Part shown: positions 31,646 to 54,012 of the stretch, piece by piece | How positions within the stretch are numbered: position 1 is the stretch's first letter | Layout: every line of letters starts with the position of its first letter | From: a virus | Reading direction: 5' to 3' (one strand) | Length of the DNA stretch: 64,000 bases | IMG/VR virus record: IMGVR_UViG_3300021594_000960 | Span: 1 to 64,000 of that record | Made by a program: the position numbers and the translations under genes | Notes under the pieces: model-generated | The model's input: only the letters and a program-made list of their open reading frames with translations | Told to the model about the DNA's origin: nothing | Database searches by the model: none

Positions 31646-32287
31646 TTACAAACCCAAAATATCGTTGGCGATTTCTTCTGATGAGAGATTTTTCCAAAGT
31701 CTCGGGTGTTGGTAAGACCATATTGTTTTCCAATATCCGAACCAAATCATCCCCTCTTTCCTTGGGTCAATTGTTTTCCAATCAGAACTATTTTTAGGGA
31801 ATCTACCTATCCTATAAGTTTTGTACGGTGATATATCTCTTGTTTGATATCTTGTGTCTGACTCAGAATCGACATCTTCAAATTTTGAGAATATTTGAAT
31901 TTTACAGTAATTTTTCCTTTTGTATTCTTTGATTTTTTTCAACCATAACTCGGCATCATCACGGTTTTCCGTTTCAATTATGAACCTCACAACTTGGTCA
32001 TAATCATTATACCTATGATTAAAAATCAATTTCAATCCATAAATTGGGTCAAACTTATAAATCCTCAACTCGAAATCCATGTAAAATTCTATGGGTATTC
32101 TGAATTCTTTATAAGGCCAATCACAATTACTTGTTACATGAAAGCTTTCTAACATGACTGGTTGATGGTCGTTATTTCGATACTCAACACATTCAACGAA
32201 ATAAGTTAAATCAGGTCCACCAACTCTAACTGTAATTCCATTGTTGAAATCAATTAAAATTTTCTCACTTCCTACTTGAAAAAACAT
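31646..32287 (-). CDS. Hypothetical protein, 213 aa, coupled to carbamoyltransferases
   Basis: A beta-rich front (EKILIDFNNGITVRVGGPD) and a Trp-rich tail (EGMIWFGYWKTIWSYQHP). I know no family. Its start overlaps the end of the second carbamoyltransferase by 23 bases, so it is probably part of the same pathway. Confidence 0.6.
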   Translation of the reverse strand: MFFQVGSEKILIDFNNGITVRVGGPDLTYFVECVEYRNNDHQPVMLESFHVTSNCDWPYKEFRIPIEFYMDFELRIYKFDPIYGLKLIFNHRYNDYDQVVRFIIETENRDDAELWLKKIKEYKRKNYCKIQIFSKFEDVDSESDTRYQTRDISPYKTYRIGRFPKNSSDWKTIDPRKEGMIWFGYWKTIWSYQHPRLWKNLSSEEIANDILGL

Positions 32288-33860
32288 ATTCTCCGATTAT
32301 AAGTTTATCTAATGTTCCGTCCATAAGTTTTGGAAATGCGTGGTCAGGATTATCAATTATTGGTTCATTGTGGGTATTGAATGACGTATTCAACAAAACA
32401 GGTATACCTGAAATTTTATGGTACTCATTCAGTATTTCCCAAAATAAAGAGTTATTTTCTTTCTTTACAAGCTGTGGCCTTGCAGTCTTATCCGATTTTT
32501 GAATTACTGCTGGAATTTTTTCAATCCATTCGTCTTTAGTTTGAAAACACAAAGTCATAAATTCAGACGTATATTTAGATTTTTTTTCTACGAAAATATC
32601 GTCAAAAAACTCCTCCATAACAATCGGTGCGAAAGGCATTGAATCATGTCTTTTGAGACGAGAATTAAGTTTTCTGTGTGTTTCATAATCAGTGGGTCTA
32701 ACCAAAATACTTCTTGCACCTAAAGCCCTTGGACCATATTCGAAACCATGTTGGAACCAACCGATAATTTCACCATTGTGTAATAATTTTGCAATTTCAG
32801 ATGGGTTGTATTTTTCGTATTGAACATGGTATTTTTCTGAAGATTCAATAATTTGTTTGTTTGAATATTTTTTACCAAAAAAAACATTTTTTAATTTAAA
32901 TGGTTTAGTGATTTCACCTAATTGGTGTGCTTTTATTATACACGCACCCAAGCTCAAACCCTCATCACCCATAGCGGGAAATATATAAATTTCCTCAACC
33001 CATGGAAGATTATTAATTTTTTGATTCAATTTAACATTTGCAAACAAACCACCTGAAAGACATAGTTTGGTATAATCAGGAAACCTATTGTGTAAGTCAT
33101 TGAAGAAATTTAACATTAAATCCTCAGTGATTTTTTGTAAATTATATGAAAACCTTTCGATTGATTTATTGTCTTGAAACCAACCTAATCTGTGCATTGT
33201 TTCAACTATAAATCTTGTTTTGTTACCAGTATCTATCGGAAAAAATCGTAAGTCTTTGTAATCAATTAAAGACTTTAGTATTCTATATATATTTTCGTCA
33301 TACTCCCCATCAGGAGCCATTCCCATTAGTTTACCTTCATCCTTACACATTTTCCAAACACTCTCACCTTCGTGGTCATATCCTTTGATTGTACTAACTG
33401 AAAACGCCCAAAGATGTGATAAACTACCTGTGCTGCACATATCATAGGAATATGCTAGAGTCATTTTTCCATCTTCACATAAGTAAACTTTCATTACTGA
33501 TTTGTCTCCACCACCGTCGTATGATATACTAAGAGCTTTACCTTCCATACCACTAGTAAAATAAGCACCATAACAATGTGCGTCGTGATGACTTACTCTA
33601 TCATAATTAAAATCCGTAAGTCTGTTAGCAAAAGCTTCGGTGACTGGCTCAACGAAAACCCTGTAATCGGCTTCTTTGATTTTTATACCTGAAATTTTTT
33701 CTACCTCCGCTGAACTTAATTGTGCCACACAATCGAAATTATCACCAGCTTTTTTTCTTGTAAGTCTTTCTTCTTCTATACAACAAATTATTTCGCCATC
33801 TTTAATAAAAGAAGCCGAAGGACTGTGTGAACCACCATAAAAACCAAATATTGTACTCAT
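32265..33860 (-). CDS. NodU/CmcH-type carbamoyltransferase, copy 2
   Basis: The 531-residue protein has the full two-part family layout. The N-terminal ASKHA-like domain shows FGFYGGSHSPSASFIKDG, CIEEERLTRKK, SHHDAHCYGAYFTSG and SISYDGGGDKSV. The C-terminal nucleotide-carbamoyl domain shows IIGWFQHGFEYGPRALGARSIL and PVLLNTSFNTHNEPI. The family moves a carbamoyl group from carbamoyl phosphate, via carbamoyl-AMP, onto hydroxyl groups of sugars, antibiotics or modified nucleobases. All key motifs present. Only 5 bases after the first copy. Confidence 0.9.
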   Translation of the reverse strand: MSTIFGFYGGSHSPSASFIKDGEIICCIEEERLTRKKAGDNFDCVAQLSSAEVEKISGIKIKEADYRVFVEPVTEAFANRLTDFNYDRVSHHDAHCYGAYFTSGMEGKALSISYDGGGDKSVMKVYLCEDGKMTLAYSYDMCSTGSLSHLWAFSVSTIKGYDHEGESVWKMCKDEGKLMGMAPDGEYDENIYRILKSLIDYKDLRFFPIDTGNKTRFIVETMHRLGWFQDNKSIERFSYNLQKITEDLMLNFFNDLHNRFPDYTKLCLSGGLFANVKLNQKINNLPWVEEIYIFPAMGDEGLSLGACIIKAHQLGEITKPFKLKNVFFGKKYSNKQIIESSEKYHVQYEKYNPSEIAKLLHNGEIIGWFQHGFEYGPRALGARSILVRPTDYETHRKLNSRLKRHDSMPFAPIVMEEFFDDIFVEKKSKYTSEFMTLCFQTKDEWIEKIPAVIQKSDKTARPQLVKKENNSLFWEILNEYHKISGIPVLLNTSFNTHNEPIIDNPDHAFPKLMDGTLDKLIIGEYVFSSRK

Positions 33861-33865
33861 CTAAA

Positions 33866-35536
33866 TTACCTCTTGATAAGAATATTTCCTATAACAAGAA
33901 AGTCCAATTTGCATCTGAACATAGAGTTAATCGCGTCTGTAGGAGACTCAACTATTGGCTCGTGGGGACCATTAAAACTTGTGTTCAAAAGAACAGGGAC
34001 TCCAGTCTTGTCGTAGAAATTTTTAATTAATTTATAAAATCTAGGGTTTGACTCTTCAGTCACTGACTGATGTCTAGCAGAATTGTCGATGTGTGTTACC
34101 GCAGGTATTTTACTTCTCCACTCCTCTTTAACTGTAGTTGTTACTAACATGTAAGGTGAATAAACATCTGATTCGAAAATCTCTGACTGATGTTCGAATA
34201 ATACAGCTGGTGCGAATGGCCTATACCACTCTCTTTTTTTGATATCGGAGTTGATATAACCCGTCATCCATGAGTTAATTGGTGATGCTAATATTGAACG
34301 GTTACCTAACGCTCTTGGACCTATCTCAGAGCCATTTTGGAACCATCCAATAACACGATTCTGTGATAATTGATGAGTGACTTCCGAAACCAATTCATCA
34401 AAATTTTCGTATCTAATGAACTCCAAATCAGGAAATTCATTTATAGACTTTGTTACTTCAGAATCTGAATATACTTTACCTAAGTAAGGAGACAATTTTT
34501 TTGTTTCTTTGATTGGACTTATTTGTTGATATCCGTACCAAGCACAACCTAAGGGGATTCCTGAGTCATCCGATGGAGGTAAAAAATAACAATCTTCATA
34601 GAGACCCGAGTTCAAAATCTGCTCATTAGAGTTACAATTAAGAAAAGAACCACCAGCAACACAAATGTTTTTTGACTCCGATAATTTCTTTCCAAGTTCT
34701 GCTAACATCACAGAAACTCTTTCTTGTTCTCTTTGATAAATTCCTGCAACACATGCTCTTGAAAAAAAGTCCGAGTCGTGTGTTACTCTTGGATATATCA
34801 AATTATTTGGGATAAATATATCTCCATCCTCCGTCCAAACATTGTAAAATGGCGCTTCTGCAACTATGTCCTTGTCGGCATAAGAAGCAAGTCCCATAAG
34901 TTTTCCTGCTGGCCAAGTATGACTTTGGGGTTCATAAATTAATTGAAGAGAACCCGTCGAATAAACGGTACCGACCGATACACATTCATTAGTATCAATT
35001 GGTACAGGGTATTTAATCCATTTTTTATAGACTTCCTTATATTCGGATTTTGTGAAATGATATATTGAAATACCTTCAGTCCACGCTTCATTATCTTTCA
35101 AACCCTCTCTTGTTTTTTCAGGATACCATTCAGATAGCCTATTTCTATCGTCTAATATACTTCCTGACGCATCTGCAACAACAACCACAGAGTCATCAAA
35201 GCCCGAGCTAAAAAATGTAGAATAAGCGTGCGCTAGATGATGAGGTAAGAATTCATGTTTTTGTGTTATATCGTATTTCAATTCTTTCTTGAATTTGAAA
35301 ACAACATCATCAATTTCTTCAGTTGTACTATACACCCAAAGGTCAATATCTTTGAATGTGAGAGAAGTGTTATCCAAACAATATCTGATTGACTCAACAG
35401 GAATTTCTCCTCCAACGTGTGCGCCGTCATGCTTTACCCTTGAAAGTCTTTCTTGGGTAATTCCGATAAGTATTTTTCCGTTTTCAATAATAACAGCTCC
35501 CTTGTCGTGACCGACAGAAAAACCTAAAACTCTCAT
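33866..35536 (-). CDS. NodU/CmcH-type carbamoyltransferase, copy 1
   Basis: The 556-residue paralogue of the next gene has LGFSVGHDKGAVIIENG, GITQERLSRVKHDG, PHHLAHAYSTFFSSGF, VVADASGSILDD and RVIGWFQNGSEIGPRALGNRSI, ending with VPVLLNTSFNGPHEPIVESP. Sequence identity between copies is limited outside motifs, so the duplication is old and the acceptors may differ. Possible acceptors are a DNA base hydroxyl or a surface glycan. Head of a four-gene block ending at 31646. Confidence 0.9.
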   Translation of the reverse strand: MRVLGFSVGHDKGAVIIENGKILIGITQERLSRVKHDGAHVGGEIPVESIRYCLDNTSLTFKDIDLWVYSTTEEIDDVVFKFKKELKYDITQKHEFLPHHLAHAYSTFFSSGFDDSVVVVADASGSILDDRNRLSEWYPEKTREGLKDNEAWTEGISIYHFTKSEYKEVYKKWIKYPVPIDTNECVSVGTVYSTGSLQLIYEPQSHTWPAGKLMGLASYADKDIVAEAPFYNVWTEDGDIFIPNNLIYPRVTHDSDFFSRACVAGIYQREQERVSVMLAELGKKLSESKNICVAGGSFLNCNSNEQILNSGLYEDCYFLPPSDDSGIPLGCAWYGYQQISPIKETKKLSPYLGKVYSDSEVTKSINEFPDLEFIRYENFDELVSEVTHQLSQNRVIGWFQNGSEIGPRALGNRSILASPINSWMTGYINSDIKKREWYRPFAPAVLFEHQSEIFESDVYSPYMLVTTTVKEEWRSKIPAVTHIDNSARHQSVTEESNPRFYKLIKNFYDKTGVPVLLNTSFNGPHEPIVESPTDAINSMFRCKLDFLVIGNILIKR

Positions 35537-40248: not shown

Positions 40249-40254
40249 TATTAT

Positions 40255-40341
40255 ACCTTGGTGGCGAAATCGGTATACGCGCAAGACTTAAAATCTTGTG
40301 GACAGAAAATGTCCGTGTGGGTTCAAGTCCCACCTGAGGTA
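40255..40341 (+). tRNA. tRNA-Leu (UAA)
   Basis: Acceptor ACCTTGG/CTGAGGT, anticodon stem CAAGA/TCTTG with loop CTTAAAA, variable arm GGACAGAAAATGTCC, T-arm GTGGG-TTCAAGT-CCCAC. Its 3' acceptor overlaps the next tRNA by about 10 bases. Confidence 0.9.
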
Positions 40342-40417
40342 GGCGTAACGGTAGCCGCGTTGGTCTTAGGAACCAATGACTTCGGTCGTGAGAGTTCGAG
40401 TCTCTCTTGGGGTACCA
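40332..40417 (+). tRNA. tRNA-Leu (UAG), overlapping the preceding tRNA
   Basis: Anticodon stem TTGGT/ACCAA with loop CTTAGGA, long variable arm around CTTCGG, T-arm GAGAG-TTCGAGT-CTCTC, encoded CCA. The best 5' acceptor (ACCTGAG, one G.G mismatch with TTGGGGT) lies inside the 3' end of tRNA-Leu(UAA). Confidence 0.8.
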
Positions 40418-43448: not shown

Positions 43449-43455
43449 TAAAAAG

Positions 43456-43527
43456 CGTGCGTAGCTCAATTGGTAGAGTACTAGTCTCCAAAACTAGGAG
43501 TTTCAGGTTCGAGTCCTGACGTGCGTG
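43456..43527 (+). tRNA. tRNA-Trp (CCA)
   Basis: Anticodon stem CTAGT/ACTAG with loop CTCCAAA, T-arm TCAGG-TTCGAGT-CCTGA. The acceptor GCGTGCG/CGTGCGT needs four G.U pairs, which is unusually weak. Confidence 0.88.
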
Positions 43528-43530
43528 CAA

Positions 43531-43618
43531 AATGTAAACTTCAGTACCCACACAGTGGTGAGACGGGCTAAGTTAGATACGATTCCTCGGAGCTGGGAGT
43601 AGAATGCTGAAGAACATT
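43531..43618 (+). ncRNA. Inter-tRNA structured RNA, element A
   Basis: Two closing stems, AATGT/ACATT and CTTCAG/CTGAAG, enclose about 60 bases with a CCCAC/GTGG-type hairpin and the core CCTCGGAGCTGGGAG, nearly identical to that of element B. Placed directly after tRNA-Trp, so probably processed from the tRNA transcript. Confidence 0.45.
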
Positions 43619-43626
43619 TATAGGTT

Positions 43627-43715
43627 GATTGGGGAATGGTGAAACTAATGACTCGAGAGTGTATTTCGGTCAGTTTCATCGGAGTTGGGAGAAATACACC
43701 TGAGTAATGCCAATC
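43627..43715 (+). ncRNA. Inter-tRNA pseudoknot RNA, element B
   Basis: The outer stem GATTGG/CCAATC holds two interleaved 9-bp helices: 43638-43646 with 43672-43680 (GGTGAAACT/AGTTTCATC, one G.U) and 43659-43667 with 43691-43699 (GTGTATTTC/GAAATACAC). The order 1-2-1'-2' is an H-type pseudoknot. The core TCGGAGTTGGGAG is shared with element A. Confidence 0.6.
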
Positions 43716-43760
43716 GTAAAAGGAGTTGTCCACGCAACCATCTTCTCCTTTCCTTAATTT

Positions 43761-43842
43761 GGGAGTATCGCCTAGTGGCAATGGCAGAAGACTGTAAATC
43801 TTCCCTCTTTCGAGTTCGTTGGTTCGAGTCCAGCTACTCCCA
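43761..43842 (+). tRNA. tRNA-Tyr (GUA)
   Basis: Acceptor GGGAGTA/TACTCCC, anticodon stem GAAGA/TCTTC with loop CTGTAAA, long variable arm, T-arm GTTGG-TTCGAGT-CCAGC. Confidence 0.92.
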
Positions 43843-43845
43843 CAA

Positions 43846-43906
43846 AATGATTGAAGTCCTGAGTGGTATCGGGAGGAAGTAACACAACCAAGTGTAACAA
43901 TCATTT
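43846..43906 (+). ncRNA. Inter-tRNA structured RNA, element E
   Basis: A 9-bp outer stem AAATGATTG/CAATCATTT encloses an ACAC/GTGT hairpin and a TCCTGAG...GGGAGGA segment. Lies between tRNA-Tyr and tRNA-Met. Confidence 0.45.
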
Positions 43907-43983: not shown

Positions 43984-44063
43984 AAGACAGACACACGCTT
44001 CCCATGGTGTTAAAGTACAAGGATAATGAAGAGAATAATACGTCTCCTTAGGTCTGTCTGAAA
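43984..44063 (+). ncRNA. Inter-tRNA structured RNA, element D
   Basis: Outer stem AGACAGAC/GTCTGTCT encloses two arms, ACAC...GTGT and AAGGA/TCCTT, giving a branched, tRNA-like outline without a T-loop. Lies between tRNA-Met and tRNA-Gln. Confidence 0.45.
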
Positions 44064-44416: not shown

Positions 44417-44447
44417 TAAAAACCCATCTTTCGATGGGTTTTTTTAT
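44417..44447. terminator. Bidirectional terminator
   Basis: AACCCATC/GATGGGTT with A- and T-runs; it ends the tRNA operon and the convergent gene at 44444. Confidence 0.85.
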
Positions 44448-53568: not shown

Positions 53569-53961
53569 TGGTGGAGAAGACGGGATTCGAACCCGTGTCT
53601 TGTTCGCGATAACTATAAATGACTACACGTTTATTACAACATTGTTTCTCAATGTTCCGAAATATTAGGTTTGATATTTGTGAGAACCCCACCTACAAAC
53701 AACTTGGTCTCAGAATTATTTTAAACGAGCTCTGACCTGTGACCCGTAAATTGGACTTCTGTTCCTAGGTTAATGTCCTAACCGACCCGAGTAGTTGTGT
53801 CTTAATTAAGCAACAACTGTAGCTTCTTCAGCGATTAAACCGATAGCAGCCATTTTAGCAAAAGTATTGCCGTTTGTGTTTCAAATCAGTTTTTAAGGAG
53901 TTAATTCAGCTCCTACGTGCCACTTATACCTACACACGCCAATCAATGCCATGTCTTCCCC
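53569..53961 (-). ncRNA. ssrA: Transfer-messenger RNA (tmRNA)
   Basis: The 393-base minus-strand RNA has a tRNA-like half: acceptor GGGGAAG/CTTCTCC (one G.U), discriminator A, encoded CCA, and T-arm ACGGG-TTCGAAT-CCCGT. The internal tag frame (53874-53806) reads NGNTFAKMAAIGLIAEEA then TVVA before TAA; it is about 22 residues and ends hydrophobic but not in the usual LAA. Pseudoknot-like GC stems flank the frame. tmRNA with SmpB rescues stalled ribosomes and tags the product for Clp proteolysis. A host-type promoter lies 20 bases upstream. Confidence 0.9.
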
Positions 53962-53981: not shown

Positions 53982-54012
53982 CAAATATAGGTATAAATAT
54001 TCTATTTCCAAA
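53982..54012 (-). promoter_or_regulatory. Bacteroidota-type promoter for tmRNA (TTTG-N19-TATATTTG)
   Basis: On the minus strand TTTG (54012-54009), 19 bases, TATATTTG (53989-53982), 20 bases before the mature tmRNA 5' end. Confidence 0.75.

Follow-up and report, generated by a model that had tools for sequence, protein, structure and literature searches.

Why RNAs other than tRNAs persist in phage tRNA clusters has been a question since the stable RNAs of T4, and it is revived by a spacer between the genes for tRNA-Trp (43455-43528) and tRNA-Tyr (43761-43843) in the window analysed here, which covers 64 kb of a 73,155-base virus record and contains 15 tRNA genes and a tmRNA. A preliminary description, made from this sequence alone, had placed a compact pseudoknot at 43627-43715, composed of two interleaved 9-bp helices and an outer 6-bp stem. 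All three helices are present (43638-43646:43672-43680, 43659-43667:43691-43699 and 43627-43632:43710-43715), and the setting amid phage tRNAs is as described. The RNA lies on the same strand as both tRNAs, and an intrinsic terminator (44418-44443) closes their array. The span originally given captures the pseudoknot core but is too short, and an extension of the first helix (S1b), an AGG/CCU closing stem and a third arm had been left out. The whole RNA unit comprises 133 nt, of which that pseudoknot forms about two thirds. Its parts are as follows.

43622-43754 (+): whole RNA unit, three-way junction with pseudoknot insert (159 bits with the R1 covariance model)
43622-43624 (+): P1 5' strand AGG, partner CCU 43752-43754; invariant in the 32-member alignment A1
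43627-43632 (+): P2 5' strand GAUUGG, partner CCAAUC 43710-43715; six pairs, the outer stem of the preliminary description
43633-43637 (+): conserved GGAAU, 5' side of the P2 internal loop; G12, G13, A14 and A15 invariant in A1
43638-43646 (+): S1 5' strand, first pseudoknot helix, partner 43672-43680; nine pairs, one of them G-U
43650-43652 (+): S1b 5' strand GAC, partner GUC 43669-43671; 3-bp extension of S1
43659-43667 (+): S2 5' strand, crossing helix, partner 43691-43699; nine Watson-Crick pairs
43681-43690 (+): L3 GGAGUUGGGA, conserved linker joining the 3' strands of S1 and S2; GGAGUU invariant in A1
43703-43711 (+): conserved AGUAANGCC strand, 3' side of the internal loop; AGWAAN before GCC or GCU in every unit
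43719-43751 (+): P3 hairpin AAAGGAG/CUCCUUU (43719-43725:43745-43751), third arm; double changes at four of its seven pairs, in A1 and in the larger set of 187 units alike
43726-43744 (+): P3 loop UUGUCCACGCAACCAUCUU, conserved GUCCAC..CCAUC; invariant in A1 save for a few positions

Promoter-like motifs of the form TTTG-N-TAnnTTTG are overrepresented in the window (14 versus 4.6 expected), from which, given the promoter types known, we infer a Bacteroidota host. For one protein of this phage the closest named relatives are uncultured phages of 634-642 kb, with about 58% identity.

Covariation and distribution of the RNA family

The helices had been called far beyond chance. For a single sequence this is a fair statement, but it depends on the last pair of the nine: of 1000 dinucleotide-preserving shuffles of these 89 bases, 2 contained crossing helices that both reach nine pairs, whereas 61 contained the eight-pair version. 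Nested folding without pseudoknots did not flag the region (z -0.75), and because this minimum-energy folding is unremarkable the single-sequence case alone would be modest. Evidence from relatives is considerably stronger. These were fetched, together with their tRNA clusters, by means of a neighbouring nucleotidyltransferase, and in them the ends of the element are conserved and the middle differs. A scan of IMG/VR with a pattern based on the ends returned at least 119 stretches, and 72 of 73 distinct members lie within 500 nt of a tRNA. A typical member begins 8-10 nt past one tRNA and stops 44-47 nt ahead of the next. The same hairpin, the third arm P3, fills those 44-47 nt in all members, which identifies 43622-43754 as the true unit; a third arm follows the pseudoknot in nearly every homologue.

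The structure was tested on the 32 aligned members of A1 and 37 pairs, pseudoknot included, with shuffled alignments and slid helices as controls. In the full structure 99.5% of cells are paired and compensatory changes are found at 21 of the 37 pairs. Double-change cells number 171, against 43.6 in shuffles (none of 500 reaches 171) and at most 14 with the helices slid. Compensatory changes affect six of the nine pairs in S1 (99.3% paired), all three in S1b, six of nine in S2 (100% paired), two of six in P2 and four of seven in P3. Across a larger set of 187 units P2 is paired in every one, with double changes at four of its six pairs, and P3 is paired in almost every unit, one of its positions showing as many as 127 double changes. 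P1 is paired in 183-186 of the 187 and does not covary, although in the L092 group it reads AAG/CUU, a compensatory change noted by eye. We relied on these formal pair counts; an automatic pseudoknot finder passed 71 of 90 members, its greedy helix extension apparently overlapping the second helix. The pseudoknot is therefore real by the measure whose failure, an absence of covariation in homologues, had been named as refuting it. G-U cells outnumber A-C cells by 53 to 1, so that the functional strand is the plus strand, and we regard a structured plus-strand RNA family as established to near certainty. That the helices arose by chance within an ordinary spacer could draw on the unremarkable nested folding energy, but the conservation of about 190 distinct units and their covariation already refute this reading, and we give it practically no credence.

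In the loci searched, 160 matches to a covariance model were obtained, some being second, tandem copies whose middles differ. In tandem copies CCC replaces ACC in the P3 loop, and a scan for this variant returned at least 120 stretches. The distinct units collected number at least 191, from IMG/VR phage contigs and mostly from tRNA clusters, and make up an RNA class with a structure proven by covariation and no listed relative. Unit limits are identical in the 32 aligned members and in about 190 distinct units. Contigs of the window type form one lineage, in which shared proteins link 136 of 143 loci; among loci with only the alternative type, 53 of 88 have a protein in common with that lineage. 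Units of the B type often sit close to tRNAs, 54 of 95 beginning no more than 20 nt from the upstream tRNA and 77 of 95 finishing no more than 20 nt before the downstream one.

No member was found among 50,697 records of isolate phages, in plasmids, or in about 85,000 bacterial and archaeal genomes searched with a single exact pattern; 54 genome matches were rejected as homologues because they are without the P3 motif and resemble chance matches. This class has been overlooked because the unit is absent from the phages of the isolate collection. We found no published description of the pseudoknot RNA in the open-access literature, in which preprints are largely missing, so an unlisted description is not excluded. 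With this reservation, the RNA class and its fixed-scaffold, exchangeable-pseudoknot design are new, its location beside tRNAs is a known theme, and its mechanism is unproven.

A fixed scaffold and an exchangeable insert

The interpretation offered in the preliminary description is supported, but it missed both the breadth of the family and the design of the RNA. The scaffold is nearly constant and consists of a three-way junction (P1, P2 and P3), the loop GUCCACnnRMCCAUC, the AGWAAnGCC strand and a conserved internal loop. In contrast, the insert carried at the P2 tip is anywhere between 16 and 103 nt long over the 191 distinct units, and tandem copies hold different, unrelated inserts. Other heads (GAA, AAU) are found at the 5' side of the P2 internal loop in the alternative subfamily. 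There a CGGUU immediately 5' of AGAAANGCC can base-pair with AACYG in the insert-hairpin loop (judged by eye, without a formal count), an arrangement with the same topology as the window pseudoknot and a different sequence. Three minimal units (L289, L343 and L371) carry only a short AAC/GUU hairpin. Direct evidence of insert exchange comes from L226: over 36 nt its insert shows a 97% match to a spacer RNA that stands alone in L153 and L194. At the level of sequence, these comparisons demonstrate an RNA module of large Bacteroidota-type phages in which a fixed scaffold bears an exchangeable insert at the P2 tip; in the classes examined the insert is pseudoknotted, minimal forms excepted. We have not met this combination among the RNA families considered, and it suggests an arms race.

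A further contact may exist between the insert and the scaffold. L3 sequences with GAGUU go with A at one P3-loop position and those with GAGG go with C, and apparent exceptions to this rule are misassigned motifs. A short helix that pairs the GUU in GGAGUU (L3) with the AAC in CAACCAUC (P3 loop) could account for the correlation. This prediction is only suggestive, because the correlation may reflect one ancestral change.

Known RNA classes and possible functions

The preliminary description recognised no known class with this topology, and the databases agree: Rfam 15 has no match to the window unit at gathering level or at E up to 10, and a search at E up to 5 of ten loci with other members was equally negative. 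Its comparison with the stable RNAs of T4 stands with respect to location and size, rnaC (species 1) and rnaD (species 2) being non-tRNA RNAs of 119-139 nt and unknown function at the edge of a phage tRNA cluster. However, rnaC (L281 2909-3047) ends in a tRNA-like T arm and acceptor strand, suggesting a tRNA origin, and the pseudoknot RNA has no such ending. Homology was rejected, as the R1 model, run with filters off, matches neither rnaC nor rnaD (L281 2909-3172) and reaches no more than 8 bits elsewhere in the T4 region. GOLLD and ROOL are likewise structured phage RNAs of unknown function near tRNA islands, but GOLLD is often longer than 800 nt and both form cages (PMC12286853), whereas the pseudoknot unit measures about 75-170 nt. 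With no Rfam model match and a unit of 133 nt in the window, membership was rejected. An identity as tRNA or tmRNA was likewise discarded, for want of an ARAGORN or Rfam tRNA/tmRNA match, and so was a likeness between the P3 loop and a portion of RNase P RNA, there being no match to an RNase P model.

Two pseudoknotted classes required closer comparison. Theta ribozymes, which are HDV-like and tRNA-associated, lie right behind phage tRNAs (PMC10879173). The nested double pseudoknot of that fold (P1, P2, P3 and P1.1) is missing from our unit, in which the covarying helices form one H-type pseudoknot and S1b encloses the 5' strand of S2, leaving no separate P3 hairpin of the HDV kind. These ribozymes also require a catalytic cytosine in the junction before the 3' strand of P2 (PMC10879173); the corresponding linker here, GGAGUU followed by variable letters, has no conserved C in 32 sequences. 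Cleavage within 5 nt of the tRNA 3' end is not met by the anatomy either, with the unit about 8-10 nt and S1 about 25 nt past the tRNA. Type III antitoxins of the ToxI and pseudo-ToxI kind are also RNA pseudoknots (PMC3475682), but ToxI consists of a 36-nt tandem-repeat pseudoknot beside its toxin gene, in contrast to one or two copies within a 133-nt scaffold. No toxin was detected in a PADLOC scan of ten neighbouring proteins, and a type III antitoxin locus was rejected. Inserts have no Rfam-level likeness to any antitoxin RNA, and the toxin or defence target is not known.

Inserts that range in length from 16 to 103 nt speak against a coding role. The combination of a constant scaffold and a pseudoknot that changes and can be exchanged is in keeping with an RNA that acts in trans on a changing target. 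The unit is an accessory gene, since L002 lacks it and keeps the same flanking tRNA-Trp and tRNA-Tyr 5 nt apart; L014 holds a truncated remnant. We infer that the unit would be transcribed together with the tRNAs and, from its position, that tRNA-processing enzymes could release it, with RNase P cutting at the next tRNA and trimming after the previous one. Such release cannot be general, since 33 of 96 units of the alternative type have no recognised tRNA within 300 nt. The freed unit would then be kept as a stable RNA acting in trans, although no transcript has been observed. In the least certain steps, the scaffold would confer stability or recruit one constant partner and the fast-changing pseudoknot would bind and titrate a changing host factor, for example an anti-phage ribonuclease or an RNA-binding defence protein. 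A stable trans-acting RNA of some kind is the reading we moderately favour; the stable transcript, its partner and a phenotype are unobserved. That it acts through its pseudoknot as a decoy or inhibitor of a host factor is possible, but falls somewhat short of an even chance in our judgement. This proposal rests on analogy with phage pseudo-ToxI, a pseudoknot RNA known from experiment to neutralise the host ribonuclease toxin ToxN (PMC3475682), a precedent that may serve as a lead and not as a test. Strong conservation of the scaffold loops points to a single unchanging partner, for which a pure decoy would have no use. A more elaborate and rather doubtful version is a modular platform, in which a constant protein- or RNA-binding scaffold would display pseudoknot cassettes, swapped by recombination with array spacer RNAs and each aimed at a different host factor. 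If this were true, phage tRNA arrays would be RNA-effector islands and more than tRNA stores.

Action in trans could instead be directed at translation or tRNA use, through ribosomes, synthetases or tRNA-modifying enzymes. The location among tRNAs, the tRNA-like RNAs in the same arrays and the published pull-downs that tie GOLLD to ribosomes, as far as these are quoted in PMC12286853, speak for such a role. However, complementarity to Bacteroidota 16S/23S rRNA is no greater than in shuffles (with partial rRNA coverage), and the unit is not tRNA-like, so we consider this role unlikely. Still less probable to us is a spacer for processing, or a new self-cleaving ribozyme, that separates adjacent tRNAs. 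The unit does lie just past one tRNA and ahead of the next, its pseudoknot and conserved unpaired core resemble a small ribozyme, and theta ribozymes in gut phages set a precedent (PMC10879173). Yet the unit is not HDV-like, a bare 2-6 nt separates other tRNAs of the same clusters, and close relatives without the unit, L002 among them, indicate that it is not needed for tRNA separation.

We give equally little weight to a cis element for polymerase read-through of long untranslated arrays. Processive antitermination elements are known in the put and EAR RNAs, and the unit lies on the transcribed strand within a long untranslated array. Units are also found 3' of protein genes, and the one in L318 begins 16 nt past a Bacteroidota-type promoter. 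Against this, such a promoter is just upstream in only 1 of 190 units, the unit is usually many tRNAs downstream of the array start, some related arrays do without it, and it occurs in tandem with different inserts.

Other structured RNAs and genes

Several further spacers carry structured RNAs. At 43539-43612 a second stem-closed spacer RNA (CTTCAG..CTGAAG) shares the motif CGGAGCTGGGAG. Homologues are found in L004, L005, L013 and L014, and the one in L002 sits behind tRNA-Arg instead (836-905), indicating that modules of this type move. The spacer RNA at 43985-44059 has an 8-bp closing stem and a possible H-type pseudoknot (44007-44012:44036-44041 crossing 44019-44023:44045-44049), and is kept in many relatives with little variation. 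Another, at 43845-43906 and also in L116 (5220-5285), is closed by a 9-bp stem and contains two hairpins with potentially kissing loops (TGGT/ACCA). Among inter-tRNA spacers of L001-L226, 51 of 107 cluster representatives have a closing stem score of at least 7, against 8% of shuffles, and dozens of recurrent unnamed structured RNAs occur, some of them tRNA-like. This enrichment suggests that many further such RNAs exist. There are also tRNA-Leu genes with a structured variable-arm insert of roughly 80 nt (L004 5086-5247, L005 6359-6514 and others), which ARAGORN misses.

Elsewhere in the window, the phage tmRNA occupies 53569-53961 on the minus strand and encodes the tag AEEATVVA; a promoter motif of the Bacteroidota type immediately precedes the gene (53982-54012). 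Two tRNA-Leu genes at 40254-40417 have a predicted overlap of 11 bases (40332-40342), and two neighbouring Nol-like carbamoyltransferase genes lie at 32265-35536.
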